From Cycloclasticus sp. symbiont of Poecilosclerida sp. N (lineage in GTDB: Bacteria > Pseudomonadota > Gammaproteobacteria > Methylococcales > Cycloclasticaceae), in contig LWTM01000068.1 in the NCBI GenBank assembly GCA_002101205.1, positions 1-64,000 on the forward strand: a stretch of 64,000 nt of DNA, given 5' to 3'. The notes below the pieces were generated by a model. The model saw only the letters and a program-made list of their open reading frames with translations, had not been told where the DNA came from and did not search any database. This document shows, piece after piece, positions 12,576-28,948 of the stretch (position 1 is its first letter; every line of letters starts with the position of its first letter). Made by a program: the position numbers and the translations under genes.

Positions 12576-12913
12576 TTGTTAGTACTTATTTGCTGTAGTT
12601 GAATGATAATCAAGGGAAGATCATCTTGAATAATACTCCATAAAATATCGTTATCTATACCCAAATAACCATGAATCAATCTATTACGAGTTGCAATAAT
12701 TTGCCTCCAAGGTATCGAGCTATACTCCTCACGTATTTCTGTTGGAATATGCATGGCAGCCTCACCAATTAATTCTAAATTACGTACGGTTGCATCATAA
12801 TTCAAGCCTGTTGACTCAAATGATTCTAATGTTAAACCATCAGAATATGCCTTTGCATTTTCAGCAAAACCGAGCATATCTTGTACATAAAAACACCATT
12901 CACGCTCAGACAT
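12572..12913 (-). CDS. hepT: HepT-like HEPN ribonuclease toxin
   Basis: The 113-residue protein starts at MSEREWCFYVQDM; an in-frame start at 12931 lies inside mntA. DUF86/HepT family: an all-helical HEPN fold with the R-x4-H catalytic motif in ATRNRLIHGYLG near residue 80. HepT toxins cleave RNA and are silenced by MntA, which adds AMP to the Tyr of the R-x4-H-x-Y motif; that Tyr is present here (H-G-Y). The start overlaps mntA by 8 bases and the stop overlaps hsdM by 4, so all three are probably cotranslated. Confidence 0.88.
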   Translation of the reverse strand: MSEREWCFYVQDMLGFAENAKAYSDGLTLESFESTGLNYDATVRNLELIGEAAMHIPTEIREEYSSIPWRQIIATRNRLIHGYLGIDNDILWSIIQDDLPLIIIQLQQISTNK

Positions 12914-13196
12914 TAATTGCCTCACTTTCAATAAACTCTTTTAGTTCTGGGCGCAAAGCTTTTTCAGTCACCAAATCAATCGGCTGCCCCAGCGTATCCT
13001 CAAGTAGGAACTGTGCACCAAAATATTGCTTGGATGTTGCTGCACCATCAAAAGAGATAATAATATCTATATCACTGCCTTCTTTGGCCTCATCACGTAC
13101 AGTAGAGCCAAATAAAGCTAAGCGGGTTACGCCAAATCGTTTTATTAACTCTGGTTTTAATTGGCTTAAAGCCGCTAAGGCGTGTTGTTTTTTCAT
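12906..13196 (-). CDS. mntA: MntA-type nucleotidyltransferase antitoxin
   Basis: This 96-residue minimal nucleotidyltransferase has GSTVRDEAKEGSDIDI near residues 30-45, which is the G-S-x-x-R-x(n)-S-D-x-D signature that binds metal and ATP. In this family the enzyme AMPylates and so neutralises the HEPN toxin HepT, encoded next. The start follows AAGGAAATTAAA. A CCTAGT/ACTAGG inverted repeat at 13216-13232 lies just upstream and may be the operator. A degenerate second copy of much of this gene lies at 13363-13537, and its first 11 codons recur before hipB (14.8 kb). Confidence 0.88.
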   Translation of the reverse strand: MKKQHALAALSQLKPELIKRFGVTRLALFGSTVRDEAKEGSDIDIIISFDGAATSKQYFGAQFLLEDTLGQPIDLVTEKALRPELKEFIESEAINV

Positions 13197-13246
13197 TTTA
13201 ATTTCCTTAAATTCTCCTAGTCATCAACTAGGGATGATGTTCAATC

Positions 13247-13537
13247 GTCACGCAACACCTAGGCGTAATTCCAGACTTGTTGACTATCTCTGATGTACTC
13301 ATTTGTTAATACTCATTTTCTGTAATTTCTTGATGATTAAATGCCTTTTTTCGCTCAGACATTAATCGCCTCATTATCAATAACCGCTTTTAACTCAGGA
13401 CGCAAAGCCTTTTACGTCACCAAATCAACCGGCCGCCCTAACTCATCCTCAAGTAGGAACTGTGCACCAAAATATTGTTTAGAGGGTTGCAGACCCATCA
13501 AAAGAGATAATAATATCTATATCGCTGCCCTCTCTCG
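13247..13537 (-). pseudogene. Degenerate partial copy of the mntA-hepT-hsdM junction
   Basis: 13247-13302 matches the first codons of hsdM (12525-12577), including its start. About 13303-13362 matches only the two ends of hepT, with the middle deleted. 13363-13537 matches mntA from its C-terminus to the SDIDI region. Base changes and indels break every frame. The order and strand are the same as in the intact genes right next to it, so this is a tandem duplication that has decayed. Confidence 0.8.
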
Positions 13538-13637
13538 CTTATGTATTGTATATATATAACCGAAATTAACCATAAATCAATTTTTAGAAAGTTTTAGAGT
13601 GCCTGTCCCTGTTTTTACGGTCAGATGCAAGTTTTTG

Positions 13638-13982
13638 TTAGGGGTGATAAGAGTGCAAGCCTTGAAGCATTTTCAGGCAATACGAATTAAGGCTCTCGCC
13701 TTTTCTTAGTGCACCGATACTTAACTGCTCATGCAATTCTTTACCAACGCGTAGATTGAATTTACCAGAGTATTTTTTTCCTGCTGTTGATTTAGGAATA
13801 GGAGTGCCATCTAGGTTATAAATATCTATCCATTCTTCTACATTTTTGCATAACTCTTTGTATACTTTTGCTTCATCATCACCATGAATGCCGCCTAACA
13901 TTAGACCAGGGCAGTGGCCTATATAGCATTGATCTTCTTCAGACCACTCGACTATTTTTAAATATTGATCACTTAATTTCAT
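13638..13982 (-). CDS. hicB: HicB-family antitoxin
   Basis: The 114-residue product starts with the partially degraded RNase-H-like HicB fold (YLKIVEWSEEDQCYIGHCPG, then a G-I-H-G-D-D-E-A turn). It ends with a ribbon-helix-helix DNA-binding segment (KFNLRVGKELHEQLSIGA, E-S-L-N-S-Y). HicB binds and blocks the HicA toxin and represses the operon. Its ATG overlaps the hicA stop (TAATG). Since hicA is frameshifted, hicB may be an orphan antitoxin here. Confidence 0.88.
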   Translation of the reverse strand: MKLSDQYLKIVEWSEEDQCYIGHCPGLMLGGIHGDDEAKVYKELCKNVEEWIDIYNLDGTPIPKSTAGKKYSGKFNLRVGKELHEQLSIGALRKGESLNSYCLKMLQGLHSYHP

Positions 13983-14172
13983 TATGACACCTCGTTAACT
14001 GCATTTTTTACGGCCTTGATTTGAGATGGCTTTGCATCATCGCCTGTTTTTCACTAATTGTGATTTTGCTTCCTTTTTGATGTGTGAAATTACGATGGCT
14101 GCCTTTTTCTCCTCTGTTTTCGAAACCGGAAGATTGTAATTGACGGATTAACTCTCTAATCTTTGGAGGCAT
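13982..14172 (-). pseudogene. hicA: hicA toxin gene with a one-base frameshift
   Basis: Reading from ATG at 14172: MPPKIRELIRQLQSSGFENR, then GEKGSHRNFTH, QKGSKITISEK. This is the double-stranded-RNA-binding-like HicA mRNA interferase with its conserved catalytic His (GSHRNF). After the K the frame is lost. The family's next segment G-D-D-A-K-P-x-Q appears in the next frame, as GDDAKPSQIKAVKNAVNEVS, and ends with TAA overlapping the hicB start. The total of 191 bases is one short of 64 codons, so a single deletion near CAGGCGATGATG explains it. The residual product would be a truncated, altered HicA. Confidence 0.82.
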
Positions 14173-14181
14173 AAATAGATG

Positions 14182-14196
14182 GTACTGAAATAGTAC
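14182..14196. promoter_or_regulatory. Inverted repeat upstream of hicA, candidate HicB operator
   Basis: GTACT-GAAAT-AGTAC is a perfect 5-5-5 inverted repeat 10 bp upstream of the hicA start codon. HicAB operons are repressed by HicB or HicAB at such operators. TATAGT on the minus strand partly overlaps it and could be the -10 box. Confidence 0.4.
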
Positions 14197-14351
14197 TATA
14201 GAGTCAAATTCTTACCCATAACGTCTTACGTCAGATGGAAGTGCTTGTTGGGCGATTTAGTCATCGACATATTCAGAAGTCGTTAATTTAAAAGGGGCGC
14301 CACCCTTCTATTCAAGCGATTGCGCAAAAATAAAGACCTGCCCCCGAATCC

Positions 14352-14429
14352 TTAGGATCGTAAAGTACCAACAAGAACAGGCGAATCAAACGCTTCCCAA
14401 TCAGCAAAAACATAAACTTCCGTACTCAT
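14352..14429 (-). pseudogene. hipA kinase-toxin gene, N-terminal stub
   Basis: From ATG at 14429 the frame reads MSTEVYVFADWEAFDSPVLV-G-T-L-R-S and stops at 14352. HipA-family kinases found with this type of HipB begin in just this way. The rest of the gene (over 400 codons) is absent. The start is 10 bp past the hipB stop, which is the normal hipBA spacing, so this is what remains after a deletion. Confidence 0.65.
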
Positions 14430-14439
14430 ATTGGCCACC

Positions 14440-14739
14440 TTAACCTTTACTCAGCAGCTTAATATCCTGAAGCTTCCGCCCCAGCTCGTCATCACTGGCG
14501 ACCTTAGCAAAATCATCCGTTAAACCAAGCACTGCGAGCACCGCCACATAGTGGCCTATAGAAACGCCAGAACCACCTTGTAATACTCTACGAATGGTTA
14601 AACGGCTTAGACCCGTTCGTTCAGAGATCAAAACCTGTGTGTAGCCACGCCGTTTACAGGCAAGTTTAATATTCTCGCCAAGTTGCTCTAAAACCTTCTT
14701 ATTTTTAGGGAAAACAACAGCACTTCGTTTTTTATTCAC
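14440..14739 (-). CDS. HipB-like XRE transcriptional regulator
   Basis: I chose the GTG at 14739, giving VNKKRSAVVFPKNKKVLEQL and a 99-residue protein, because family members begin at this point. An earlier ATG at 14904 would add 55 residues that include an unrelated copy of the mntA start. The helix-turn-helix lies about residues 20-55 (ENIKLACKRRGYTQVLISER, T-G-L-S-R-L-T-I-R-R). The C-terminus has the D-D-E-L-G-R-K-L-Q-D motif usual in HipB-type antitoxins beside HipA. With hipA reduced to a stub it probably survives as a stand-alone regulator. Confidence 0.75.
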   Translation of the reverse strand: MNKKRSAVVFPKNKKVLEQLGENIKLACKRRGYTQVLISERTGLSRLTIRRVLQGGSGVSIGHYVAVLAVLGLTDDFAKVASDDELGRKLQDIKLLSKG

Positions 14740-14798
14740 TTCAACCACAGGCACTATACTATAGTGGACTCCAGTATTTAGACCAATACTTAAAGCCG

Positions 14799-14840
14799 CT
14801 AAGGCGTGTTGCTTTTTCATTTTAGGTTCCTTAACTTTTT
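14799..14840 (-). repeat. Copy of the mntA start region fused upstream of hipB
   Basis: CTTAAAGCCGCTAAGGCGTG, followed by TTGCTTTTTCATTTTA, is nearly identical to 13160-13202 at the mntA start and encodes MKKQHALAALS in the same strand. It joins abruptly to hipB leader sequence near 14798. It marks a recombination junction between the mntA and hipB modules. Confidence 0.7.
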
Positions 14841-14880
14841 CGATAAAGGCACCATATACGTTGCCTTGCTGAAATCCAAT

Positions 14881-14896
14881 GGCCATATATATGGCC
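14881..14896. promoter_or_regulatory. 16-bp perfect palindrome, candidate operator
   Basis: GGCCATATATATGGCC reads the same on both strands and lies in the space between the minus-strand hipB/mntA'-type leader and the plus-strand small gene at 14975. A diverged version with the same flank (ATATATATAACCGAAATTAACC) occurs at 13547-13570, upstream of the decayed mntA copy. It could therefore be the original operator of the mntA module. Confidence 0.4.
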
Positions 14897-14974
14897 GAAA
14901 TCAACCATAAAACAATTCTTAGCGCCTGACCAGAAGCTTATTCAACCATTATTAAATCTGCTAAAATTCAAACT

Positions 14975-15151
14975 ATGGAAAACAAATCCCTTGCCTCATC
15001 TAACCCATTTCTAAAAGATGCTACCGTTGCTCGTAAACAGATCGTTCGTAGCATTGCCAGTTCTACAGCCATTGAAACGGGTGAGTCCATAGAGGTGATC
15101 GAAAAGAAGCTTAGCCAGAAATATTCTCGGCATCACGTAACGCTTGCTTAA
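14975..15151 (+). CDS. Small protein of unknown function (58 residues)
   Basis: The 58-codon frame reads MENKSLASSNPFLKDATVAR, K-Q-I-V-R-S-I-A-S-S-T-A-I-E-T-G-E. It looks like real coding sequence (Ser/Ala-rich, no rare codons in a run, an N-P-F-L-x-D start), but I do not recognise a named family. It is divergent from hipB and is the only plus-strand frame inside the defence island. There is no good Shine-Dalgarno site. Confidence 0.45.
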   Translation: MENKSLASSNPFLKDATVARKQIVRSIASSTAIETGESIEVIEKKLSQKYSRHHVTLA

Positions 15152-15237
15152 AAACAGCCTTCATCGGTTCTATATATTCTACTATTCTACTTCTGTAGTA
15201 TTTTATTCGATCCGATCCTTTGTAGTACTTTATTCGA

Positions 15238-16881
15238 TCAGATCCTTCTCTCGTGTGCTGTTTCAATTCGGCACATTAAATGGGAAATAAGACTTAATAG
15301 ATCAAGGCAATCTTTCTCGGAAAAAAGGCCAGACTCTGATAAATCAATGACTTCTTGATGCGCAACAACATTACGTCCACCTTCTATAATACCTTGCGAA
15401 AGTTTACGTTGAGCAGACTCTATATTTTTAACCGTCTTTACCGAAAAGAAATCCCCATTGCCTCTAACGTAACCGACAACAACTTTTAAAGCTTTTGCAT
15501 CTTCAGGACCAAATACATTGCCCATTAAGTCGAAGTCTCGCGTATTATTATTTCCCGAATATTCACGAACCTTATTTGCATACCTTTTTACAGCCTCTAA
15601 AAATGCAGCATAATAGTTACCACCCTTATACCCCTGTTCAGAAGCAATCTGAATTTCAGGATGAAGGTGTCGCCAATGTAGATTAGGGTATTCAGGAGCC
15701 AACTGATGCACAGCTAAAACAACTGGATGAAAAGACTCATCAACTCCTTCATCTGTACTCAATGTATTAACAATTGTTTCTACTGGTTTTTTTATCTCAT
15801 CTGGCAAAGTAGAAAGCCACTTTTCCTTGTCGATTCCTGTGTTCTTCTTAAATTCATCATCTTTCTTAGTCTTCCGCTTCTCTCTCCAGTTTATGCCAAC
15901 TTTAGAAATAAGATCTCTTAGCCACTCTCTAAACTCCGCCATTTTCTCATCTTCCCAATTAATGGCTTGACGATTTGTTGAAATAACATCCTCGTCTAAA
16001 AGGTCAATAAAATCTGCCTTTATCCAACCAGTAAGGTACTGATAAAAATGACTTGATGCGCTATCAGAAAAATACTCAGGCGCATTAACCAACTTCCCTC
16101 TTGAAAAAATCGTAATCCCCCGCAGTCCAGAACTTGGCTTAATGGGTGTTTTGCTAGTAATAATATGAAAGTCTATATCGTCAATGAATTCAAAATCATT
16201 TAATTCTAACGATGCTTTGCCCCATATAAACTGCTCCTCCATCTGTCCATAACGGCGTTCATTAGTGACTACTACATCCTTCCCACCTGTTTTCTTTAAA
16301 ACAATACTAAAATCCGTATCAATAATAAATATTCTTGAAAGGCTATCTGCTAATGATTCAAGGTCGAAAGCACTTTTCCTTTTCAACCTCCTCAGCACTA
16401 TTGCCGTACCATTGCTATTCCCCGTTTCCTCATCGACAATCTCAGAAACTGGCCTATAAACACTATTAGAGCTTAGAAGCTCATCCCAATCTAGCTGAAA
16501 GCGATTCCGTTTCATTTCTTGCACAGTGTCTAATACAATCTCTTTTGCTAATCCAAAAAGAGCTAGTTTTCCCAAACCTTTTTTTCCTGTCGGCATACGA
16601 CCATACTTTGGTGATGGTTCATCCCCATCCTCCGACCTTCGGTTACGCCCAATAACTAGAAAACGTTCTTGAATGTCAGAAGCACTCATCCCATAACCAT
16701 TATCTTTTACCGTTATAGAGACAGGCGTTCCATTTTGTTCGTGAAAGGTCACCTCAACTTCACTAGCGTCCGCATCATAAGCATTTGATATAAGCTCTGC
16801 CAATGCAGGTGGCAATGTTGAATACATTTTTACGCCCAAGTGCTCAATTGTTTTCGGGTCAAACCTTAGTTCATAATTCAT
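15238..16881 (-). CDS. MORC/MutL-like GHKL ATPase, R-M associated
   Basis: The 547-residue product has an N-terminal GHKL (Hsp90/MutL) ATPase domain. Motif I is ALAELISNAYDADASE near residues 26-41, motif II VKDNGYGMS near 59, and motif III GRMPTGKKGLGKLALFGLA near 94. An S5-like second domain and a helical C-terminus follow. MutL/MORC relatives encoded beside DNA methylases in restriction systems are a known group (paraMORC; Iyer, Abhiman and Aravind). The partner here is the C5 methyltransferase 10 bp upstream. The exact role is inferred: ATP-driven clamp or loop capture that helps restrict unmodified DNA. Confidence 0.75.
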   Translation of the reverse strand: MNYELRFDPKTIEHLGVKMYSTLPPALAELISNAYDADASEVEVTFHEQNGTPVSITVKDNGYGMSASDIQERFLVIGRNRRSEDGDEPSPKYGRMPTGKKGLGKLALFGLAKEIVLDTVQEMKRNRFQLDWDELLSSNSVYRPVSEIVDEETGNSNGTAIVLRRLKRKSAFDLESLADSLSRIFIIDTDFSIVLKKTGGKDVVVTNERRYGQMEEQFIWGKASLELNDFEFIDDIDFHIITSKTPIKPSSGLRGITIFSRGKLVNAPEYFSDSASSHFYQYLTGWIKADFIDLLDEDVISTNRQAINWEDEKMAEFREWLRDLISKVGINWREKRKTKKDDEFKKNTGIDKEKWLSTLPDEIKKPVETIVNTLSTDEGVDESFHPVVLAVHQLAPEYPNLHWRHLHPEIQIASEQGYKGGNYYAAFLEAVKRYANKVREYSGNNNTRDFDLMGNVFGPEDAKALKVVVGYVRGNGDFFSVKTVKNIESAQRKLSQGIIEGGRNVVAHQEVIDLSESGLFSEKDCLDLLSLISHLMCRIETAHERRI

Positions 16882-16891
16882 ACTTAATCCT

Positions 16892-17929
16892 TTAATTTGT
16901 TTCTTCTAAGTGCCTTCTCACCATTGCCGCGTGTCTTTTGATAAATTCAGGCGGCAAAGCATTGCCAATCATCAATGCAACCGCATCTTTTCCTTTCTTC
17001 ATTGAAAATTGATAATCTTTTGGGAATGTTTGAAGCAAAGCCGCTTCTCTTAAACTAATAACACGATTTTCTTCTGGATGTAAAAATCGGCCTTTGGATG
17101 GTTGGTGGCATCCACCAGTTATAGTTGGGCTAACAGTATCCCATGCCATCCTTCCATACACATCTGTATAACTTTTAGGACTTTTAAGATGGCACTTTAA
17201 CCAATACTCCTTAGGCAATTGTGCTCTCGAACCTCCATCTTTAGGAACTAACTTAATCATTTCTTCTATTCTTTTAGTTCTTTTAGCCCTTAAATCATGG
17301 AGCACATCACCACTTTTACCAACCGCACCAAAACCATGAATAACGTCCCTAACAGTAACTTTCTTATCTGCCTTTTTAGCTGGCTTTATGAAACCAATTC
17401 TAGATGCTAATAAAATCATTCGTCGTCGTCTCTGAGGAACTCCATACTCCGAAGCATCTTTAACTTGTACTGTGTTTTCATCAATCTGATAGCCCAATTT
17501 TTTTAATTCTTCTAAAACAGTATCAATCCTCTTATCTTTCGCCAACCCCGGAACATTTTCCATCATGATGGTTTTAGGTAGCATTGCACGGACAAACTTC
17601 ATAAGCTCAAAAACCAAGTCATTTCTGACATCACTAACAGATGCCACCTTATTACGAGTTCTATGAGTTGAAAACCCTTGGCAAGGAGGACAGCCTGCCA
17701 ATAAATCTAATTCGCCAACTCTCAACCCCAAATCATTCATTACTTTTTCAGGTTTAAGCTCTCGAATATCCTCCGCATACAATTTATGGTCACTGTAATT
17801 AGACTTATACGTACTTATAGCTGGTTCCGAGTTTTCAACACCAGAGATAACTTTAAACCCCGCATTTATCAAGCCTAAAGTCAGTCCACCAGCTCCACAA
17901 AACAAATCAATCGCTTTATATTTATCCAT
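16892..17929 (-). CDS. DNA (cytosine-5-)-methyltransferase
   Basis: The 345-residue C5 methylase moves a methyl group from SAM to cytosine in a specific site. Motif I is DLFCGAGGLTLG near residue 8, catalytic motif IV AGCPPCQGFSTH near 78, motif VI ENVPGL near 123, motif VIII PQRRRRMI near 164, and motif X GNALPPEF near 322. The target recognition region lies about 190-290. The start codon abuts the hsdS stop with no gap, and the MORC-like ATPase gene follows, so the pair rides in the hsd operon. No separate endonuclease for this methylase is visible. Confidence 0.93.
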   Translation of the reverse strand: MDKYKAIDLFCGAGGLTLGLINAGFKVISGVENSEPAISTYKSNYSDHKLYAEDIRELKPEKVMNDLGLRVGELDLLAGCPPCQGFSTHRTRNKVASVSDVRNDLVFELMKFVRAMLPKTIMMENVPGLAKDKRIDTVLEELKKLGYQIDENTVQVKDASEYGVPQRRRRMILLASRIGFIKPAKKADKKVTVRDVIHGFGAVGKSGDVLHDLRAKRTKRIEEMIKLVPKDGGSRAQLPKEYWLKCHLKSPKSYTDVYGRMAWDTVSPTITGGCHQPSKGRFLHPEENRVISLREAALLQTFPKDYQFSMKKGKDAVALMIGNALPPEFIKRHAAMVRRHLEETN

Positions 17930-19342
17930 TTAATTAAACCTACCATTAAAAGCTGAAGCCAGTATTGATTGCTTATTTTTTTCAGCTTTTAGCAACTGAA
18001 TATCTAGCTCATCTTCCAGTTTGTTTATTGAATACAGCTTCTCCTCCACCCTAAACACCATTTGTTCCATTTCTAATATTGAAGGCAAAGGGAATGGCAA
18101 GGTGGTAAATGATTCTTTAGTGAAGTGTTTAATTGTGCTTCCAGTAAAATATCTTTGCAACAAACCAGTTGATGCAAAATATTCAAGAAGATAAACTAGG
18201 TATTGCGGTATCAACGGAAGGTGAAAACGTACGCGGTGTAATGCTTTTTGATACTTCAGAGTAACCCCACCCTCCCATACTGCCGATCTTCCGGGTTCGC
18301 CTCCTTCACAGACCAAAACATCACCAGCACTCAAGTCATATCTTTTTAATTCACTTTCCTTAAAAAACATTTTCAATAAATTATCCGTATCAATTCTTCC
18401 CCACCTTACATTGATATTCCTAAGGTATTGAATACTCTCCCCCGTAGCATGCTTCCCTTTGTCTAGCATTTTACCCAACCAAATCTCGGCAACCTGATCA
18501 ACTGATGCCATCTCCCACTCATTTGGGTTTTCTAAATCCACAAGCAAGGCTGGTTTTTTAGGCTCTTTATACTTCTCCTTCCACTTATCATCCTTAGGCA
18601 TTTTACCTTTGGCTTGGAATTTTCTGAGCTGTTGTTCTTCCCATTTTTGGCGGTGTTCTTTTAGGATGCGTTCGAGTAGTTGGCTTGCTGGTTCTAATTT
18701 ACCTTTATTCTGTTCGCGCCAGTCTTTGGTTAGCTCGCCGGTAACGGCGGCTTTGAGGACGGATTGGCGGTATTGTTTTAGGAGTTTTTGGGCTTTTTTT
18801 AGGGCTTCTATTCCTGCATCAATATGGGAGAAGAGCTCTTCGATTTTGGCGACGATGCGTTTTTGTTGTTCGGGTGGGGCTAGTGGAAAATCTAAATTTC
18901 TTACCTGTTCTAACCGTATGCCTTTAACAGTTGTACCTGAACCTATGCTTTCTAAATGATTAGCTTTAGAAACGAACCAGTATTCTAAATAACCTTTTTG
19001 TACGTCAGGGGGCAGAATAAGTGCTTTTAGGTCTTGGTTAATTGCTGCTTTATATGGAACACGAACCACCTTCCCTAAGCCAATCCGAGTCGCGATAATT
19101 ACAGTATCTTCAGGAATAATATTTGTTGAGCTTTTTTCTACCCCTTCCTCCGTAATATGGTTCTTTGCATCGGCAGGCCGCCTTGTTCTCATATCTTTGA
19201 CAGTAAGCCACGGGATGTTGCCATTCCAATACTGCGGATTATTTTTAGAGGGTGTCCCTCCTCCAATTACCTTAGTTACTACATCACCAAGTTTTGACCA
19301 AACCCAGCCACTCGGTAACTCTTTTAGGAGTTCCTCACTCAT
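17930..19342 (-). CDS. hsdS: Type I restriction-modification specificity subunit HsdS
   Basis: The 470-residue product has two target recognition domains, each followed by a conserved helical spacer. TRD1 is about residues 8-160 (LPSGWVWSKLGDVV, IPWLTVKDM), the central helical region about 160-260 (APPEQQKRIVAKIEELFSHI), TRD2 about 275-430, and the C-terminal helix after FPLPSILEMEQ. It dictates the split DNA target of the HsdRMS complex. The ATG overlaps the TGA of a short copy of the hsdR 3' end (19339-19512), probably the ancestral hsdR-hsdS coupling. Confidence 0.94.
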   Translation of the reverse strand: MSEELLKELPSGWVWSKLGDVVTKVIGGGTPSKNNPQYWNGNIPWLTVKDMRTRRPADAKNHITEEGVEKSSTNIIPEDTVIIATRIGLGKVVRVPYKAAINQDLKALILPPDVQKGYLEYWFVSKANHLESIGSGTTVKGIRLEQVRNLDFPLAPPEQQKRIVAKIEELFSHIDAGIEALKKAQKLLKQYRQSVLKAAVTGELTKDWREQNKGKLEPASQLLERILKEHRQKWEEQQLRKFQAKGKMPKDDKWKEKYKEPKKPALLVDLENPNEWEMASVDQVAEIWLGKMLDKGKHATGESIQYLRNINVRWGRIDTDNLLKMFFKESELKRYDLSAGDVLVCEGGEPGRSAVWEGGVTLKYQKALHRVRFHLPLIPQYLVYLLEYFASTGLLQRYFTGSTIKHFTKESFTTLPFPLPSILEMEQMVFRVEEKLYSINKLEDELDIQLLKAEKNKQSILASAFNGRFN

Positions 19343-19512
19343 GCAATCAAATACCCATTCAATTCATTAATCATTGGCTGTAGTTCTTTGCCAAACAGCT
19401 GGGTTGCTTTTAGCAATCCTCCTTCTTCTTGGTTGAAGGGTGTGTATTCAAAATCATCGAAGGTCATTTCTGCATTTTGGGCGATTTGTTCTTTTATTTT
19501 GTTTATCAACAT
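19339..19512 (-). pseudogene. 57-codon duplicate of the hsdR 3' end, still coupled to hsdS
   Basis: 19342-19505 repeats 20524-20684 with few changes and encodes the HsdR tail (KIKEQIAQNAEMT, then GKELQPMINELNGYLIA). The frame is intact from ATG at 19512 to TGA at 19339. The ATG has GTGAGG as a ribosome-binding site, sitting in the last codons of rhuM-fic. The TGA overlaps the hsdS ATG (ATGA). The piece could be only a scar of the rhuM-fic insertion, or could still serve as a translation relay that feeds hsdS. Confidence 0.8.
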
Positions 19513-19517
19513 TACTT

Positions 19518-20504
19518 TTACCTCACTAGCATACTCATAATCAGTCGAATCATGGTTTCTTTTTGTTCAGGTGCCGACTCGGCAACCAGTAGTGTCAGCG
19601 CTGCCAATCCAGTATCGTTAATGATCGGTTGGTCTTGCTTGTTTAGTAAGCTATTGTTTCTATGTAAAAAGTCTACAAATAGAAATGCTCCGCTGCGTTT
19701 ATTGCCATCGGTAAAGGGGTGGTCTTTCACCATAAAGTACAGAAGGTGCGCTGCTTTGCCTTCTATACTTGGGTAGGCGGGCTCTCCAAATATTGTTTGC
19801 TCAAGATTGCCGAGTATCGAGGCTATGCTATCGGTGCGTTCTTTGGCAAATAGCTCTGTCGCTTCGCCTCGTTGTACGAGGCTAGTTTTAAATTCTGCTA
19901 AGGCTTGTTTTACTTCGATTTCGGTGGGTAATACACCACCTGCCTGGCCTTGTGGCTCTATTAACAGGCCTTCATCGTAACGTTGCAGCCATAAAAAGGT
20001 TTGGGTGTAGCGGCGGACTATTTCCACTAGGCCTGTACCCACCTCGGCTGTAATAGTTTGTGATTGAGCGGTCTTTTTAATTAGGCATAACATCGCTTCT
20101 AGCTCATTGGCATTTTGCTCAAAACGTTGCTGGTTGAGGGTGTAACCTTGGGTTAAATATTCTCGTAAGCGCTGGGTTGCCCAAATGCGAAATTGAGTAC
20201 CTTTTAATGAATTAACTCGATAACCGACGGAAATAATGGCATCCAAATTATAAAACATGACCTTTCTTTTAACCTTGCGTCTGCCTTCTTGCCGAACTAT
20301 CGAGGATTGCTCGGTAGTTGCTAACTGTTCTAACTCTCCTGATTCATAGATATTTTTTAGGTGCAGGCTAATTGTATCGCTGTCCCTTTCAAATAGCTCA
20401 GCCATTTGTGATTGCGAAAGCCATAAGGTTTCTTGTTCAAAGCGAACCTCAACTTGGGAATGGCCATCTTCGGACTGGAATATTTCTATTTGCTTATTGT
20501 TCAT
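19518..20504 (-). CDS. RhuM-Fic (DOC) fusion protein
   Basis: The product has 328 residues. The N-terminal RhuM-type half (VEVRFEQETLWLSQSQMAEL, then VKRKVMFYNLDAIISVGYRV near 80-100) resembles Salmonella virulence protein RhuM and phage regulators. The C-terminal half carries the Fic/DOC AMPylation motif HPFTDGNKRSGAFLFVDFL near residue 262, complete with catalytic His and phosphate-binding loop. This architecture is common inside type I R-M operons. Fic enzymes modify proteins with AMP or other phosphates, but the target is not known. It lies 16 bp downstream of hsdR and is flanked by direct copies of the hsdR 3' end. Confidence 0.88.
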   Translation of the reverse strand: MNNKQIEIFQSEDGHSQVEVRFEQETLWLSQSQMAELFERDSDTISLHLKNIYESGELEQLATTEQSSIVRQEGRRKVKRKVMFYNLDAIISVGYRVNSLKGTQFRIWATQRLREYLTQGYTLNQQRFEQNANELEAMLCLIKKTAQSQTITAEVGTGLVEIVRRYTQTFLWLQRYDEGLLIEPQGQAGGVLPTEIEVKQALAEFKTSLVQRGEATELFAKERTDSIASILGNLEQTIFGEPAYPSIEGKAAHLLYFMVKDHPFTDGNKRSGAFLFVDFLHRNNSLLNKQDQPIINDTGLAALTLLVAESAPEQKETMIRLIMSMLVR

Positions 20505-20520
20505 TTCTCACCATGCCATC

Positions 20521-23295
20521 TTATGCTATCAAATACCCATTCAATTCATTAATCATTGGCTGTAGCTCTTTGCCAAACAGCTCGGTTGCTTTTAGCAACC
20601 CCCCTTCTTGGTTGAAGGGTGTGTATTCAAAATCTTCGACGGTCATTTCTGCATTTTGGGCGATTTGCTCTTTTATTTTGTTTAGCCAGGCTAATTGGTC
20701 TGGAGTGAATTCTTTGTTTTGCTGCTGTAGCCAGTTTTCGAAGCGGTTATTGACTATCTCTGTGAACGATTCTAGCACATCGGTTATGCCGGTTGCCAGT
20801 CTTAGTAAGCTAACCAATACGGGGAGTTTGCTGTGGGGTGCTGCGCCTTTTACTTTGGCTTTTTTTAGCTGCTCGTAGGCTTTCCATACTTCTACGGGGG
20901 CTATGTGGTATGGCGGTTGTTCTATCTTTTCTACCAGTTGGTTGATCATGTCGTAACTTAGGTGGCGCTTTTGGTAGGGTTGCCGGTAGATGAGTTGTAT
21001 GGCATCGAGTTCGTTTTGATGGTCTTTTATAAATTGTTGCCAGTTGTTGATGAGCCCTTCGGCTTTTTCTACATCGTAGCCGGTGCCTTCTGTATCTATT
21101 TCGTCTGCGCTGTCGTCTATGAGTTGGTCGCTGTCTTTTCGTAGGGTTTCTATTAGCTCGCGCAAGGCAGGTTGGTGGAAGGGTTTTACTAGTTCGTTTG
21201 CCTCTGGTTTGAAGGCTTGTTGAACCTGTTCTTCTGTGGGCGTTGCTTCTGCTGTGTTGTTTATTGCTTTTGCGGTTTCTAGCAGTTTGTCTTCATTGGT
21301 TGCACGTATTAGTTCACCGGCTATTAGGGCAAGTGGTTTACTGGCCAGTTGGGATACTTGTTTGCGCTGTTGGTCGCTTAGCTTTAGGTCTAACCGTATT
21401 AGGCGGTTGCCCAGTGCGCGCAGTGTGTCTGAGTGGCGATCCCCTCGGGCGATTTGTTGCATGAGTTTTTCGGTGGAGATGCTGGGTTTTGTTTCTAGCG
21501 ATCGGGTTTCTGTTTTGTCGGTTTCGGTAACGCCTACGCAATCAACCAGTACAAAGCGGCTTTTGCCGGGGGCATCGGGGGTTACTTTGTGTAGCTCATC
21601 TATGCTGAGTACGCGTGTGCCACGGCCTTTCATCTGTTCGTAGTAAGATTGGCTTTTTACATCGCGCATAAACATAACGCATTCGAGCGGTTTTATGTCG
21701 GTACCGGTGGCGATCATATCGACGGTTACGCTGATGCGGTATTGGGGGTTTGTACGGAAGGCTTTGATGGCCTCTTCTGCTTCGCGCTTACCTATTTTGT
21801 AGGTGATTTTTTTGCAGAAGGCGTTGCTTTCATTAAACACTTCTCGCACGGTATTGACTATGCGGTCGCAGTGGTCGTCATCTTTGGCGAAGATGAGTGT
21901 TTTGGGAACCCATGCCATTTTGCCGTTGTTAAATTCTCGCTCTGGAAAACACTCTTTTAGGCAACGGTCTTTAAAGGCTTGGATGACGGTACGAATTTGG
22001 TCGGGTGCGATGACGCTTCTGTCGAGCTGCGCGGCTTCCCACTTTTCTTCTTCGTCTAGTATTTCTAGCCGTTTTTGTTTGGTGAACCTATCGCGCCTTT
22101 GTACGGCAGTTCCTGCCTCTAGGGTACTTCCCTTTTCGGTCATTTCTGTTTTGATGCGGTAGATGTCGTAACCTACATTTACTTTATCAATGACTGCGTT
22201 TTCATGGGTGTATTCAGAGACCATATTTTGATTAAAAAAACCGATGGTCTTTTTGGTGGGCGTGGCGGTTAGGCCGATTAAAAAGGCATCAAAATATTCA
22301 AGCACTTGTCGCCATAGGTTGTAGATGGAGCGGTGGCATTCATCAATAATGATAATGTCGAACGCTTCAATAGGAATGCTTGGGTTGTAGGTAACGGGGC
22401 GCGGTTGCTTATTCACGCTGCTGGTTTCCACTTCAAAGCCTGAGTGCTCGTCTGCCTCATCATCTAGCTCTTGCCCTGTTAGCTGTGAGTACATGCGCTG
22501 AATGGTGGATATGGTTACTTTGCTGGCCTCGACTATGCCTGCACGGCCAAGTATGTTGACGTTGTAGTGTTGGGTGAATTTACGGCCATCATTCGGGATG
22601 ACAAATTGTTCAAACTCATCTTTTGCATTGGTGCCTAAGTTGCCACGATCAACTAGAAATAAAACACGCTTTGCCTTGGCAAATTTAGCTAGGCGATACA
22701 CCTGTTTAACAGCGGTATAGGTTTTACCTGAGCCTGTGGCCATTTGTAGTAGCGCGCGAGGTTTAGCCTGTTTTAAGCTGCCCTCAATGCCATGAATAGC
22801 GTCAATTTGGCAATCACGTAAACCTTCTGTGTTTAGCTCAGGTAAATCCTCTGCTAGCCTTGAGCGCAGGCTTCTGCCCTCTTCTAGCCATTCTTTAAAG
22901 GTTTCTGGTTTATGGAAATGAAACAGGGGCCGTGAGCGCGGTTTTGGGTCTCGCTCGTCGCGAAAACGAATTTCTTGATTGGTGGCTTCGTATAAAAAGG
23001 GTAACGGCTGGTCGTCTTCTACCCAGCGTTCTACATAGTTGCTATGGGATGTGGCATAACGTGCTGATTGTTCCGCAACACCGCCAAGGTTTGCGCCCTC
23101 TTTCTTCGCTTCAATAATGCCGCAGGCTTTGCCCTCTATAAACAACATGTAATCGGCAGGACCGCTGTCTGTGTCCATTTCACGCACGGCAACGCCTAAC
23201 GATTCAAAGAGATTTAGTTGAGTTTTATCTTGGATAACCCAACCACAGCTCTTTAGCTGCTTGTCAATATATTCACGTGTTTCGGCTTCTAGCAC
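20521..23295 (-). CDS. hsdR: Type I restriction enzyme HsdR subunit
   Basis: The 924-residue motor-nuclease moves DNA and cuts it when the target is unmodified. The PD-(D/E)xK nuclease is N-terminal (SGPADYMLFIEGKACGIIEA-K near residues 43-64). The SF2 helicase follows with Walker A MATGSGKTYTAVKQ near 183, DECH box IIDECHRS near 314, and motif VI in EQMKGRGTRVL near 560. The C-terminus is an EcoEI-type HsdM-interaction domain. It is first in the minus-strand hsd operon. The 3' 161 bases also occur just before hsdS. Confidence 0.94.
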   Translation of the reverse strand: MLEAETREYIDKQLKSCGWVIQDKTQLNLFESLGVAVREMDTDSGPADYMLFIEGKACGIIEAKKEGANLGGVAEQSARYATSHSNYVERWVEDDQPLPFLYEATNQEIRFRDERDPKPRSRPLFHFHKPETFKEWLEEGRSLRSRLAEDLPELNTEGLRDCQIDAIHGIEGSLKQAKPRALLQMATGSGKTYTAVKQVYRLAKFAKAKRVLFLVDRGNLGTNAKDEFEQFVIPNDGRKFTQHYNVNILGRAGIVEASKVTISTIQRMYSQLTGQELDDEADEHSGFEVETSSVNKQPRPVTYNPSIPIEAFDIIIIDECHRSIYNLWRQVLEYFDAFLIGLTATPTKKTIGFFNQNMVSEYTHENAVIDKVNVGYDIYRIKTEMTEKGSTLEAGTAVQRRDRFTKQKRLEILDEEEKWEAAQLDRSVIAPDQIRTVIQAFKDRCLKECFPEREFNNGKMAWVPKTLIFAKDDDHCDRIVNTVREVFNESNAFCKKITYKIGKREAEEAIKAFRTNPQYRISVTVDMIATGTDIKPLECVMFMRDVKSQSYYEQMKGRGTRVLSIDELHKVTPDAPGKSRFVLVDCVGVTETDKTETRSLETKPSISTEKLMQQIARGDRHSDTLRALGNRLIRLDLKLSDQQRKQVSQLASKPLALIAGELIRATNEDKLLETAKAINNTAEATPTEEQVQQAFKPEANELVKPFHQPALRELIETLRKDSDQLIDDSADEIDTEGTGYDVEKAEGLINNWQQFIKDHQNELDAIQLIYRQPYQKRHLSYDMINQLVEKIEQPPYHIAPVEVWKAYEQLKKAKVKGAAPHSKLPVLVSLLRLATGITDVLESFTEIVNNRFENWLQQQNKEFTPDQLAWLNKIKEQIAQNAEMTVEDFEYTPFNQEGGLLKATELFGKELQPMINELNGYLIA

Positions 23296-23391: not shown

Positions 23392-23940
23392 TTAACCTTG
23401 GTAATTATCCACAATTTCATCAAAAAAAGCTTTACCTGAATCTGACAGAATAAAGGCGTTTGAGCCTATTTTTTGTAGCATGATGTTGCGCTCTACTAAT
23501 ATAGGTTTTATTGAGGCGCTAAAGTCTCGTTTCATAGCCGATTTTTCGAGTATCTCTGCGGTATCTGGCATGTCTTGAATTCCCTCAAAGTCTGCCTCGG
23601 TTAACCCGCCGCTTGGGTCTATTAGCTTGCTGATTCTATAGTTGTTTTCGGTTAGATATTTGCCCATTAATAGCAGCAGCACGCAGGCTTTCATGGTTAT
23701 ATCCGTTTTTAGGCTGTTTGTATCAGCGTTACGTTCTCGAATGTAGATATAGCAGGAACTTTCTACAAATTCGTAGCCTGACATTTTGTATTGGGTTCGA
23801 TAGTCATCAAGATTGTCTATTATTTCGGTGAATAATGGGTTTTCGGTAAAGCTGTTGCTATTATCTAAGCTGGTTTTGTTGATGATTCTACCGTTCATCA
23901 GTTCGTTAAAGATGCGTTGGCTCGTGGCTGCGTTATACAT
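23392..23940 (-). CDS. MukE-like winged-helix subunit (JetB-type) of SMC complex
   Basis: The 182-residue product is predicted alpha-helical with a C-terminal winged-helix look (ILVERNIMLQKIGSNAFILS, D-S-G-K-A-F-F). I do not see diagnostic motifs. The call rests on size, on its position as the last gene of an operon with an SMC ATPase, a kleisin-like and a TOPRIM gene, and on the JetB/MksE role as kite-type kleisin partner. The start overlaps the previous gene by 8 bases. Confidence 0.65.
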   Translation of the reverse strand: MYNAATSQRIFNELMNGRIINKTSLDNSNSFTENPLFTEIIDNLDDYRTQYKMSGYEFVESSCYIYIRERNADTNSLKTDITMKACVLLLLMGKYLTENNYRISKLIDPSGGLTEADFEGIQDMPDTAEILEKSAMKRDFSASIKPILVERNIMLQKIGSNAFILSDSGKAFFDEIVDNYQG

Positions 23941-25294
23941 TGGCCGGCTCCTTGTTATATTCTATTTGCAGGTAGTCAAGATAGTGAATGCCATCGTCCA
24001 TTTTGCATTGCGTGAGTTTGTTTGGCAGTTTGGTTTGGTACATTGGCAGTATCGCCTCTATGCCGTAGAGAATGTCTAATAAGCTGAAGTCATTCAGTGA
24101 TTCGTTCAGCAGTTTGAAAATATAGGCATGTACGTTGGGAATGTTGGTTTGACTCGGTGCATCGCACAGTATTTTGCTTATTCGCATTAGGCGATCTTGA
24201 TCCAGTTTATTGGTAGCGGCTAAAGGTCTTAGGGTGGTGGCTTTGGGTCTAATATCTTTTTCTTGAACCGTGATAAGGTATTCTTTAAAGCGCAATTTCG
24301 TTTGACTATTCCATGTGAGCCTTTTGGAGAATTTTTGCTTTTGACTGCTTAAACCGTCGAGTGTTCTATGATGATTAAATATATTAGAATGCGCCGTTAA
24401 GTGCTTGTTTTTCTTGCGTCCATGACGTAACGGTTTGATGCTCTCGAGCAGTTCGCTATAGGCGCTTTCCATGGCTAAAAAGTAGCTTCTGTCTTTTTTA
24501 AGATGGCTTGAAAACTGTTCCAGCTTTTTTGTTAATAAGGCAATATCTTTGTAATAACTAGTGATGACAGTTTTTTTCAAATGAATTTTATTCGCCATGT
24601 CATAGCGCTTTATTTCGCCACCGGCATAGTAATCAATTAGCGCTTGAACCGACTTGGAAAACGATTCTGTTTGCACCATGTCCATAGATGGGTTTATAAA
24701 TTCATAACATGGCAGTACAAACCTGTCGTATAAACTCGATACTTTATTATACAGGTCGGATACGCTTATTTGCTGTGATCCTGAGTCGTATAATTTATAT
24801 TCTTGCGCCAATGAATCGACTTGAGCGGTTAACGCGTAAATATTCTCTTTAACTTTAGAATGTATTTCGCTCATTAAATTGTTAAATGTACTCAGCGCCT
24901 CAATATACGGTTGCGAATCTAATGGTTGCGCTATGACATGATTAACGGCGCTGACCAATTGCGCTCGCATTTGCTCAAAATCGGCATCGGTTAGTTCTTT
25001 TGCTCTTTTAATATCAAGAAACCTGAGTAAATCAACAATCACGCGCTCAAGTGTAATCATGCCGCTGTCTTTATCGTGATGAATAAAAATACCATTTTCA
25101 ACGAGTGTGGAAATATTCAGGTGAAGGCCATCACTGCCCTCGCCCACGCAAATAACACGGTTGTAATCATTAATGTACATTTGCTCTGGAATTTCTAGCG
25201 AGCCATCATGTTGGTCGATATAATCAAGCATATTGAAAAACACCTTTTGGTGGCGAATAATCGCGCCAATTAATATTTCTCTATTCAGCTTCAT
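23933..25294 (-). CDS. Kleisin-like subunit (JetA/MksF-type) of SMC complex
   Basis: The 453-residue, mainly helical protein has an N-terminal winged-helix-like region (REILIGAIIRHQKVFFNMLD), long central helices rich in Gln/Lys/Glu, and a C-terminal segment with a conserved-looking MDDGIHYLDYLQI. In MksF/JetA proteins the N- and C-terminal parts bridge the SMC neck and head. Its place directly after the SMC gene (4-base overlap, ATGA) and before the MukE-like gene supports this role. No enzymatic motif is visible. Confidence 0.7.
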   Translation of the reverse strand: MKLNREILIGAIIRHQKVFFNMLDYIDQHDGSLEIPEQMYINDYNRVICVGEGSDGLHLNISTLVENGIFIHHDKDSGMITLERVIVDLLRFLDIKRAKELTDADFEQMRAQLVSAVNHVIAQPLDSQPYIEALSTFNNLMSEIHSKVKENIYALTAQVDSLAQEYKLYDSGSQQISVSDLYNKVSSLYDRFVLPCYEFINPSMDMVQTESFSKSVQALIDYYAGGEIKRYDMANKIHLKKTVITSYYKDIALLTKKLEQFSSHLKKDRSYFLAMESAYSELLESIKPLRHGRKKNKHLTAHSNIFNHHRTLDGLSSQKQKFSKRLTWNSQTKLRFKEYLITVQEKDIRPKATTLRPLAATNKLDQDRLMRISKILCDAPSQTNIPNVHAYIFKLLNESLNDFSLLDILYGIEAILPMYQTKLPNKLTQCKMDDGIHYLDYLQIEYNKEPANV

Positions 25295-28161
25295 CCTTCG
25301 GCGTCTCCATAAGACTCTACATGTTCGGGCAATATATTAAGGTGGCAGCTTTGCACCATGGGTTGTTGAATCATTGAGCGATCAATCATTACCCATCGAC
25401 CAACTTTCTGGCTAACAGAGGCGGAAAAACTGGGCGTTGCGCAGAATATTGAGAAGCCGTGCTCGGAAATTTGTTCAATGGTTGAATCGGTATTAATTGA
25501 ATCTAAGGTGCTAATTTCATCCACAATAATAGGCATTTGTAGCTGAACATACGGTGGTGTGATACGCTTTAATAACACTGCAAGAACAAACGCGGTAATA
25601 ACGCTAGTTGTACCACCTGATTGGCTTTTAGTCACCACATCACCCGTTGACTCTAGTTGATAGTGGTAATTTATTTCTGCGATGATATCTGCCATTTTTA
25701 GACGGCGACTTTTCTTGTTAAAGAACTTTTCAACAAATTTATTTAGAGATTCGTAAAGTTGCGGTTCTAGTAAGGCATCGCCTTGAATATCATGTTTTTC
25801 TAGCACCGACATTAACGATAAAAAAGCGGGGTTAAGTGTTAGGTGTAGGTTTATTTCTAACAGGTTAGATACACCTTTGCCATTGAGCTCTTTATTAATA
25901 TCGGCAACAAAGTTGTTTAATAAGGTCGCTGAACCCTTAATTTCACTAATCTGGTTATTAAATAGTTGGTTGTGGCTTTGTACGGCATGTTTTTGCTTGC
26001 CTAGATTATAATCGAGCGTTTCAAAAGCCGATCCGTAAATCCGAATGGCTTGATCATAATCAGCCAATTTAAGAAATTCTTTATGCGTGTCTATATCTGG
26101 GTGTGGCAAGTCTCTGGCTAAAGCATCAAATTTGTTTTTAAAATCATTTAACAGCTTGTTGTATTCGTTTGATTTTTGCTGAGCCTTAATCGCACAATCT
26201 ACATTGAGTGATTCATTATTGATTGGCTCAACATCTACTGAAACAGGCACAACCAGCTGCCTTGCAAGGTTTAGGTGGCTTTCAATGACGCTAAATTCGT
26301 CTTCTTGGGCTTTTAATCGTGTTAGCTGTCTACTTAGCTTCTCTTCTTCACCCCGAAGCGTTTCACGCTGAGTACCAAGTTCGTCCATCTTATTAGCATT
26401 AATTTTCAGCTCTTTTTCTTCAGCTAAAACTTCTTCTTTTAATTCGCTAATATCGCCTTCTAGGGTACTCAGGCTTTCGATAGACTGAATCTCGGTCTTA
26501 TTTTGTTCAATATTTTTCTCTGCTGTTTTAATTAGGTCATCTATATTTTTCTTACTGGTGACTTTGCGGTGAACATCTATTTCACTATCAACATATTCAA
26601 GCCTCTTTTCACGTTTAATGATTGTTTGTTCCCATTCAATCTGCTTTTTTTGTAAGTTGAATGGGGTTACTTTGGTTTTACCAAAAGCTTCGCCTAAAAA
26701 CCTAAGGTAACCGGCATTATTTTGCTGGAATAAATCAGTAAAATCTAAAATAGCAGATTTATTCGCATCACTTAATGTTGCCGATGCCTCTGAAAAGAGA
26801 GGATTGATAGCCACAAGAATACTTGCTAATTCTGGCTTAGCTAATTGATTAAATATTAACGATTTATTATCCGCCACCAACCCCTTTAGTCTCTTTATCC
26901 CTTCCTTTAATTGGCGTTGTTCATCAAGGTTCGTTTTTAATAATTCCGCAACACTACCCTGTTCTTTTAGTGCTGTTAATTTATATTCTTCAGCGCTTAA
27001 CTCATCCCGAAGTATCTCTAATATCTCGGCTCTATCCATACCAGCATATCGAGCCTTTAGTAACTGTGCCTTTACCAGCGAACCTTGTTTCTTTTCTAAT
27101 TGTTTATTTATGTGTTCCACTGCGCCTTTACTTTCATTCGCATCCTTAGTGCAAGTGGATAATTCCTTTTTTATGGTATTTAGATCAGCTAACTTGCTCC
27201 GATAATCTTGGCTGATTTTTTGTTGATTAGGCCTGTGGCTTCGCTTAGCTAAATTTAGTGCCATATGGGTTGAATGATAGAGAATAGAGTAATCAGTCAT
27301 CGCCTCAGTAGCTAACTTATATCGTGTTTGGACAGCGTCATAATCTGGCTTGGTATTGGCTATTTTTTGTAACCATTCACCCTGTTGATAAAGTTGGCTA
27401 TGTTGCTCGGTTAATACGGTCAAATTAGCATCTAGCCTTTCTTGGTCGCGGCTACGCCCCATTTCTAATAACGCAGCGATAGCGTTGGGCAAGGTGTTTG
27501 ATTTAAGGCTACCTGCCTCGAACGCTAACTGATAAATATTTCGAAACGCATCAATTGAACTCGGTCTATCATCCTTTAATGGCAGGACGCAAAAACGCTT
27601 TCTAGCAGGTACATCACGGTAGCTAGAAAACATCAAACTGGTGATTTCTTTAGCATCGCTTAATTGTTGCCCAGCATGCTTTTTAGTGAATTTACTAAGC
27701 TCGGCAACACTTATATTGTCGGTAAATTTGCTGGCTTCTGTATCCCAAAATAACGCTCGCATTTGCTCGTATGGAACAGGAATAAAAAACCGCCCATAAC
27801 CATAATTGTTCGTCTTGTAGAGAATCATGCAAAACCCGCCCTCTGGATTATTTACTTCTAAAATAATAAAAGAACGCGCATCAGGGAAATAGAAGTCAAA
27901 CGACTCTTCCATTGAGTAAACGCCCTCTTTTCCTTTGAACTTAAACTTGCTTTCGCAGTGGTAAAAATCCACTTCAGGAAAAAGCAATAATTTCATTCCT
28001 GCCAAGCTGGCTGTTTTCCCAACATTATTGTTCCCAAACATTGCCATATGCGTGTTCAACATAAGTTCAGAATATGCATGATTGGCCGAATTAACGTAAA
28101 CCAGCCGATTTAATAAATACTCTTCTGCCAATATACTCTGTCCAACTAAATCGTTATTCAT
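25291..28161 (-). CDS. SMC/MukB-like ATPase (JetC-type), plasmid-defence condensin
   Basis: The 956-residue product has Walker A GNNNVGKT at about residues 43-50, long coiled coils about 290-450 and 520-650, a central hinge-like gap, then the ABC signature SQSGGTTS near 845 and Walker B MPIIVDEISTLD near 876. The head closes with the H-loop region near 890-905. In Wadjet systems JetC drives DNA loop extrusion on small circular plasmids that JetD then cuts. It is shorter than the roughly 1,100 residues usual for JetC. It overlaps the upstream TOPRIM gene by 8 bases and the kleisin gene by 4. Confidence 0.82.
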   Translation of the reverse strand: MNNDLVGQSILAEEYLLNRLVYVNSANHAYSELMLNTHMAMFGNNNVGKTASLAGMKLLLFPEVDFYHCESKFKFKGKEGVYSMEESFDFYFPDARSFIILEVNNPEGGFCMILYKTNNYGYGRFFIPVPYEQMRALFWDTEASKFTDNISVAELSKFTKKHAGQQLSDAKEITSLMFSSYRDVPARKRFCVLPLKDDRPSSIDAFRNIYQLAFEAGSLKSNTLPNAIAALLEMGRSRDQERLDANLTVLTEQHSQLYQQGEWLQKIANTKPDYDAVQTRYKLATEAMTDYSILYHSTHMALNLAKRSHRPNQQKISQDYRSKLADLNTIKKELSTCTKDANESKGAVEHINKQLEKKQGSLVKAQLLKARYAGMDRAEILEILRDELSAEEYKLTALKEQGSVAELLKTNLDEQRQLKEGIKRLKGLVADNKSLIFNQLAKPELASILVAINPLFSEASATLSDANKSAILDFTDLFQQNNAGYLRFLGEAFGKTKVTPFNLQKKQIEWEQTIIKREKRLEYVDSEIDVHRKVTSKKNIDDLIKTAEKNIEQNKTEIQSIESLSTLEGDISELKEEVLAEEKELKINANKMDELGTQRETLRGEEEKLSRQLTRLKAQEDEFSVIESHLNLARQLVVPVSVDVEPINNESLNVDCAIKAQQKSNEYNKLLNDFKNKFDALARDLPHPDIDTHKEFLKLADYDQAIRIYGSAFETLDYNLGKQKHAVQSHNQLFNNQISEIKGSATLLNNFVADINKELNGKGVSNLLEINLHLTLNPAFLSLMSVLEKHDIQGDALLEPQLYESLNKFVEKFFNKKSRRLKMADIIAEINYHYQLESTGDVVTKSQSGGTTSVITAFVLAVLLKRITPPYVQLQMPIIVDEISTLDSINTDSTIEQISEHGFSIFCATPSFSASVSQKVGRWVMIDRSMIQQPMVQSCHLNILPEHVESYGDAEG

Positions 28162-28948
28162 GTAGGTAACTCTCTTGTTCTAAGGTTTTTTGCTTGTCTT
28201 TGATTAGTTTTGCGTAAGGTGCAAGCGCCGGTGTTGATAAGCCAATTTTTATCACATTTTCAATATAATCTGTCTGTTCACGCTCAATAATTTTATCCAA
28301 CCTTTCAGTAATATCATCAGGTACTAAAAATTTAAGTTGAGTATCTGGCAGTAACGACATTAAGTTTCTGGCAATGGTTAAACCGCCTAAATCAACATCC
28401 ATACAAAGGTGGATACGGTCATATTGTGATAAGAAGTTTTTATGTAAGGCATTGGATATTTCATTTCCTTCAGAAAAGATAATGTTCATCTTCGGCATCA
28501 GTTTAAATGCGGTGTGTTTTTCAAGAAAACTAATCATCAAATCGGCGTCAATAAAGTTTTGCCTGTTCTCAATGACCAGAGCTTGTTCTGATTGACAGAT
28601 AGGGCAGTCATACTGACCGGCAGCATCCATCATAACCACCACGGGATTTGCAAATTGTTCTCTTATTAATAGAAACGAGCCATTTACATTAACCGAGTGA
28701 CTTCTGTTTTGAATAGCCGCCGCTGCCCGACTACCTCCATTCTCTATAGCTAGAGCGCGAAGTTCGCTGATAAGAGCATCATTTATTCGGGTGATAATGT
28801 AAAGCTGACCTTTATGCTTAGTCGCGTCTACATCTTGCGCTTCTCTACGATGCGTTAATCTCAAGCTATCAACGAGCTTAAAAAAGGCTCTCAAATTGAT
28901 TGGACTTCCTGAATCAATGCACTTTATATAATTCAATAAACGGTTCAT
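28154..28948 (-). CDS. TOPRIM nuclease subunit (compact JetD/MksG-type)
   Basis: The 264-residue product has a TOPRIM-like core: the acidic strand ALVIENRQNF near residue 125, then LCMDVDLGGLTIARNLM near 182-198 with the D-x-D metal pair. These match the E and D-x-D positions of topoisomerase VI/JetD TOPRIM domains. JetD proteins are usually near 400 residues with an extra N-terminal arm (DUF3322). Here that arm is short, and a CPIC Cys pair precedes the core. It is the first gene of the operon, an order that differs from jetABCD and mksFEBG. It likely cleaves plasmid DNA reeled in by the SMC complex. Confidence 0.7.
   Translation of the reverse strand: MNRLLNYIKCIDSGSPINLRAFFKLVDSLRLTHRREAQDVDATKHKGQLYIITRINDALISELRALAIENGGSRAAAAIQNRSHSVNVNGSFLLIREQFANPVVVMMDAAGQYDCPICQSEQALVIENRQNFIDADLMISFLEKHTAFKLMPKMNIIFSEGNEISNALHKNFLSQYDRIHLCMDVDLGGLTIARNLMSLLPDTQLKFLVPDDITERLDKIIEREQTDYIENVIKIGLSTPALAPYAKLIKDKQKTLEQESYLHE

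Follow-up and report, generated by a model that had tools for sequence, protein, structure and literature searches.

Does an operon that holds an SMC motor and a TOPRIM nuclease gene, with the nuclease gene at its head, encode a Wadjet-like defence machine, or does its motor serve the chromosome? The question is raised by positions 23392-28948 of the window (the whole stretch of 64,000 nucleotides that was analysed), where four overlapping genes lie on the minus strand and, as read from their open reading frames, are transcribed in the order D-C-A-B with overlaps of 8, 4 and 8 bases between successive genes. The coordinates, gene lengths, order and overlaps of the first-pass annotation were all correct when the minus-strand frames were read again. 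The genes, with the evidence behind each name, and the ATPase motifs of C are:

28154..28948, minus strand: gene D, first gene, JetD/MksG-like TOPRIM nuclease of 264 aa (open reading frame, PF09983, AF2 model, hhalign)
25291..28161, minus strand: gene C, SMC ATPase (JetC/MksB-like) of 956 aa (open reading frame, type I JetC profile, partial PADLOC JetC3 match)
23933..25294, minus strand: gene A, MukF-type kleisin of 453 aa (open reading frame, Foldseek)
23392..23940, minus strand: gene B, last gene, KITE subunit of the MksE family, 182 aa (PF21980)
28012..28035, minus strand: Walker A of C, GNNNVGKT, residues 43-50 (motif reading)
25609..25623, minus strand: ABC signature-like motif of C, QSGGT, residues 847-851 (motif reading)
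25516..25533, minus strand: Walker B of C, PIIVDE, residues 877-882 (motif reading)

All three motifs of C are intact and are conserved in 16 relatives, and the C profile aligns with type I JetC from end to end, head to head (97%, E 1.6e-11), while Pfam returned a weak DUF3584 match. Gene B, described at first as MukE-like, matches PF21980 (MksE) with 66.8 bits over a cutoff of 27 (E 4e-18). Since none of the four proteins had a meaningful match among PDB sequences (phmmer/hmmsearch), comparison of folds was required, and it was this comparison that placed kleisin A, for which no sequence family match was found. The predicted structure of A (pLDDT 77) has the MukF chains 9gm7_C (E 5e-5) and 7nz2_C1 (7e-4) as its best Foldseek matches, followed by MukE-MukF entries, so that the 453-residue protein is indeed kleisin-like, as had been claimed.

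The nuclease passes the PF09983 (JetD_C) cutoff narrowly, with 24.2 bits against 22. Its predicted structure (AF2, pLDDT 91.4) has JetD 7til as best match in the PDB (E 6.7e-4, probability 1.00); third among the solved structures is the Spo11 core complex. The Foldseek scores are modest (TM 0.34 to JetD). When the profile of 42 relatives of D was compared with type I JetD by hhalign, the TOPRIM domain was aligned (95%, E 2e-8), and four sites proved to be invariant among these relatives:

28565..28570, minus strand: E127-N128, TOPRIM catalytic glutamate, in 42 of 42 relatives, aligned with JetD E261-N262
28391..28399, minus strand: D184-x-D186, TOPRIM metal-binding motif, in 42 of 42, aligned with JetD D304-x-D306
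28172..28180, minus strand: E257-Q258-E259, C-terminal LEQE motif of JetD/MksG, in 42 of 42 and in 11 type I JetD
28697..28702, minus strand: S83-H84, family-specific pair directly before TOPRIM, in 42 of 42

The TOPRIM core claimed for this protein is borne out by the invariance of E127 and D184xD186, and the glutamates equivalent to E257/E259 were discussed before (PMC10123090). Arg74 is near-invariant. The usual JetD arm was also rightly reported as nearly absent, since only ~115 residues precede TOPRIM, and no DUF3322 match and no likeness to the arm region of JetD could be detected in this N-terminal part, the hhalign alignment covering TOPRIM only. A domain of ~115 residues with an invariant Ser-His pair stands where JetD has its arm-bearing N-terminus. 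The CPIC motif, to which attention had been drawn, is present at residues ~115-118; it is not conserved, the relatives carrying QITQ, PVKL or DIAV instead, so it should not be taken as a functional feature and was rejected as a zinc or redox site. Neither is a Topo VI-like catalytic tyrosine proposed for Y7, which lies in the first helix and is found in 40 of 42 sequences, i.e., it is not invariant.

To what extent is the gene order a peculiarity of this one contig? An SMC-alignment scan of one genome per species gave 80 loci, which were merged with the window and the loci of other searches into 83 non-redundant loci. The complete D-C-A-B operon, away from contig ends, is present in 65 of them, complete C-A-B with D lost in 8, and the remaining loci run into a contig edge or have a split gene; none of the 83 shows a different order, and D-C-A-B holds wherever D and C are both kept. 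The window operon is thus no isolated rearrangement, and the survey of relatives that had been called for shows the D-C-A-B order, unlike jetABCD, to be real and conserved. Such operons cannot be counted with Pfam, since PF09983 overlooks some members of the branch: it scored the window D but not the D of genome G009.

Wadjet type I (JetABCD; MksBEFG of C. glutamicum) has in common with the window operon an SMC, a kleisin, a KITE and a TOPRIM nuclease, all in one tight operon, and its nuclease, as well as D, carries E, DxD and EQE. Type I genes are ordered A-B-C-D, according to the ten-odd loci read and the literature (the order mksFEBG is given in PMC10123090), and type I loci in the same taxonomic order likewise run kleisin-KITE-SMC-JetD. 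The type I SMC has about 1100-1160 aa in contrast to 956 aa in C, which is therefore short for a JetC, as claimed, and JetD has about 390-400 aa in contrast to 264 aa in D, with homology confined to TOPRIM and EQE. Moreover, JetD possesses an N-terminal CAP/arm region (DUF3322) that D lacks, and JetA cannot be aligned with kleisin A, no sequence similarity between them being detectable. In PADLOC the window proteins score best with the type III models, D with JetD3 (23.5 bits, 7e-6) and C with JetC3 (20.9 bits, 1.6e-5), yet both matches are partial and weak, and for A and B PADLOC found nothing relevant beyond a chance match. Other members of the branch score best with JetD1, JetC1 or JetC2, so that no single Wadjet type, II and III included, fits these partial, weak and mixed matches. 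In the broad sense the operon nevertheless has the features of Wadjet, namely the SMC motifs, a MukF/JetA-like kleisin (by fold), a KITE and the JetD TOPRIM residues. The profile searches that had been suggested relate D to JetD and C to JetC and place B in the MksE family, with A matched by fold only, and the D-C-A-B operons are on these grounds placed in a Wadjet-like branch of their own, outside types I-III as PADLOC models them. No description of the arrangement was found in open-access papers, a scope outside which lie the founding Wadjet papers, which may show such operons; the characterization as a little-described variant holds within PADLOC, Pfam, NCBIfam and the open-access literature.

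Relatives with a short SMC and the A-B-C-D order also exist (L013, L014, and L008 on the Pseudomonas plasmid pMPPla107). Their SMCs of 918-949 aa match the C profile at 1e-149 to 1e-171 once included in it, their genes are ordered kleisin-KITE-SMC-TOPRIM with a TOPRIM protein of 296-325 aa, and in the SMC-head tree they form a long branch, sister to or nested in D-C-A-B. The TOPRIM protein of L013 matches DUF7281, a Pfam domain with no assigned function that is therefore probably a nuclease of the JetD kind. A further gene order may be present at L129 (G040:C1:3528000-3543000), where a 1216-aa SMC is followed by genes of 409 aa and 288 aa, the last with a weak JetD_C match.

The 80 loci of the scan are gammaproteobacterial but for very few, e.g., one Burkholderiales bin. 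Sampled prevalence is low and patchy (4 of 369 gammaproteobacterial genomes, and 9 of 398 in a sample of the phylum), and a scan of viral contigs with the SMC gave no relative. In the SMC-head tree the window copy groups, on starred branches, with Alteromonadaceae and a Methylophaga plasmid copy, and the copy of G009, the only other one found in the same genus, falls with Methylococcales. The site beside the ETF-QO gene varies among congeners, and because the region by this gene differs, no clean empty site for the island of the window was found among them. Horizontal acquisition of the window operon fits both the grouping apart from the congeneric copy and the differing ETF-QO site. D-C-A-B operons also occur on large plasmids (L006, 320 kb, Methylophaga; L007, 599 kb, Photobacterium), which far exceed the size that characterised Wadjet cuts; in L007 two additional genes separate C from A.

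A WYL-domain gene, mostly divergent, lies directly upstream of the operon in about 16 relatives (clusters c23, c27 and c29, with a Pfam check on one member per cluster). WYL-domain proteins are regulators often found with defence systems. Genes that by eye resemble these regulators stand beside type I or other Wadjet loci as well (L127:11215-12000, L134:654-1562 and L132:13384-14244). Downstream of the window operon the adjoining R-M island that had been reported was confirmed as type I:

11115-12575: hsdM
17930-19342: hsdS
20521-23295: hsdR

Between hsdM and hsdR (11115-23295) lie also a HepT-like RNase, an HTH protein, a RhuM-Fic protein, and a GHKL ATPase with a Hypoth_Ymh domain that adjoins a C5 cytosine methylase.

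The operons without D were followed further in the marine genus Marinobacter, in which 73 of 124 searched genomes proved to carry C, 58 of them with a full-length copy (at least 59% identity). At these 58 operons D is full-length in 42, lost in 15 and cut by a contig end in 1. The last codons of D (typically ...GKFMEQEMILD) had been seen before C in nearly all of the 8 complete D-less loci of the first scan, and in Marinobacter the 3′ end of D is recognisable in 13 of the 15 D-less loci, over about 20 to 60 codons and with differing breakpoints. The retained tail overlaps the start of C, whose ribosome-binding site (GGAACAGGAG) probably lies within this tail; that may be why the deletions stop there. 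When the state of D was mapped on a tree of 35 loci, 10 changes resulted, at least 7 of them forced by well-supported branches, and these changes are losses because remnants of D persist. D was thus lost in at least 7-10 independent events. A D-like gene was found elsewhere in 4 of the 15 D-less genomes and in none of the other 11. In L150, L151, L152 and L153 (genomes G119, G189, G141 and G182) the operon lacks D and a lone D-like gene lies elsewhere, the picture that a duplication or rearrangement separating D from C-A-B would leave. Small remnants of C and A come after the stray gene of L153, and that of L150 lies near a gene of cluster c18, a cluster that in related species is seen upstream of the operon.

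In all 15 D-less loci the reading frames of C and A are uninterrupted and full-length. Between nearest neighbours dN/dS mostly lies at 0.03-0.08 for C and at 0.03-0.10 for A, with or without D, and it reaches about 0.13 where the loci compared are most divergent (dS above 1); for D it is 0.10-0.26. C and A are under strong purifying selection despite the loss of D. In the best pair that shares one loss (L144/L145, with nearly identical upstream sequence) dN/dS is 0.052 for C and 0.044 for A at a dS of 0.17; both genomes carry a D-like gene elsewhere, in one of them frameshifted near its end. Since D is repeatedly lost and C-A-B is well kept, the motor seems to have a use of its own, at least in Marinobacter, and the losses are natural evidence that a Wadjet motor can persist without its nuclease, as was proposed for MksBEF condensins. 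In three loci C is split into several frames (L154 of genome G166, L025 and L086; D is intact in the first two), which reflects either decay of the motor too in some lineages or sequencing errors.

The window operon most probably encodes a short-SMC, MukBEF-like loop-extruding complex together with a JetD-type nuclease that would cut small DNA circles. In this mechanism, taken over from characterised Wadjet (PMC10586767, PMC10123090), the ATPase C, the kleisin A and the KITE B would assemble as a dimer that reels in DNA; on a small circle the C-A-B motors would run out of DNA and stall, and the stalled state would let a dimer of D cut both strands with its TOPRIM site (E127, D184 and D186, with E257/E259). 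The assembly of the complex, loop extrusion, the preference for small circles and the benefit for defence we infer from this likeness. The closed form of the elongated type I JetD arm is thought to be auto-inhibitory (PMC10586767); D is without such an arm, hence its control must differ, and probably lies in docking to C-A-B. The adjoining R-M island, the WYL genes upstream in relatives and the patchy distribution speak for a Wadjet-like defence function, whereas the lack of sequence similarity between kleisin A and JetA, the modest Foldseek scores (TM 0.34 to JetD) and the presence of some relatives on large plasmids speak against it.

The most serious competitor is a chromosome-organising condensin of the MksBEF kind, in which the TOPRIM protein would be a topology or repair accessory and not a defence effector. 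MksBEF genes are ordered F-E-B (kleisin-KITE-SMC), and the complex is a MukBEF-type SMC-kleisin-KITE, the very composition of the D-less C-A-B of Marinobacter. MksBEF of P. aeruginosa acts on the chromosome and probably arose by loss of JetD (PMC10586767). The operon is syntenic across many Marinobacter species, which together with the frequent absence of D suggests a chromosomal role there and not pure defence, and both the low dN/dS of C and A in most comparisons, with or without D, and the 15 losses among 58 operons are in keeping with it. Yet an MksBEF condensin has no nuclease, while D is present and intact in the window and missing solely from derived relatives; an accessory that was essential would not disappear so readily, the nuclease residues are all invariant wherever D is present, and the patchy presence, the R-M neighbour, the WYL regulators and the plasmid copies fit defence better. 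For the window operon the condensin reading is judged unlikely.

Far less probable still is an anti-phage or abortive system in which phage or damaged DNA would be recognised by the SMC and D would kill the cell by broad DNA cutting. Lamassu shares this logic of an SMC-like ATPase (LmuB) joined to a nuclease in defence, and C of Marinobacter gives a partial LmuB match of 28 bits; this match, however, covers only part of C, probably the coiled coil, and where Lamassu has an LmuA effector and usually LmuC, the window operon gives no such genes or matches and has a kleisin and a KITE of the MukBEF type. Hardly any credence is left for a DNA repair ATPase of the SbcC or RecN type with a TOPRIM partner, which could draw only on the generic combination of a coiled-coil ABC-ATPase and a nuclease: Pfam and NCBIfam gave no RecN or SbcC/Rad50 match for C, no SbcD was found, and the reading is refuted by the partner subunits, since an MksE-family KITE, a MukF-like kleisin and the end-to-end JetC alignment set C apart from both families. 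Neither of the two results named beforehand as refuting a Wadjet-like reading, a 264-residue protein with no structural match to TOPRIM/JetD or an SMC of a non-defence family, was thus obtained.

A Wadjet-like function of the window operon leaves room for a bolder and more doubtful proposal, which we hold as a tentative possibility: D-C-A-B could be a separate Wadjet class, with an optional, faster-evolving nuclease on a chromosome-serving motor and with Ser83-His84 taking part in a novel control of D. If so, the recent and repeated loss of D in Marinobacter would be a Wadjet-to-condensin transition caught under way. Given the weak PADLOC matches, the branch is probably under-counted in defence surveys. 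With its 264 aa and no arm, D is a minimal JetD on which to study how cutting is triggered by an SMC motor. That MukBEF/MksBEF condensins arose from Wadjet-like defence has so far been speculation (PMC10586767); the D-C-A-B branch provides closely related genomes with and without the nuclease, the motor being intact in both, so that the two roles become separable by experiment.
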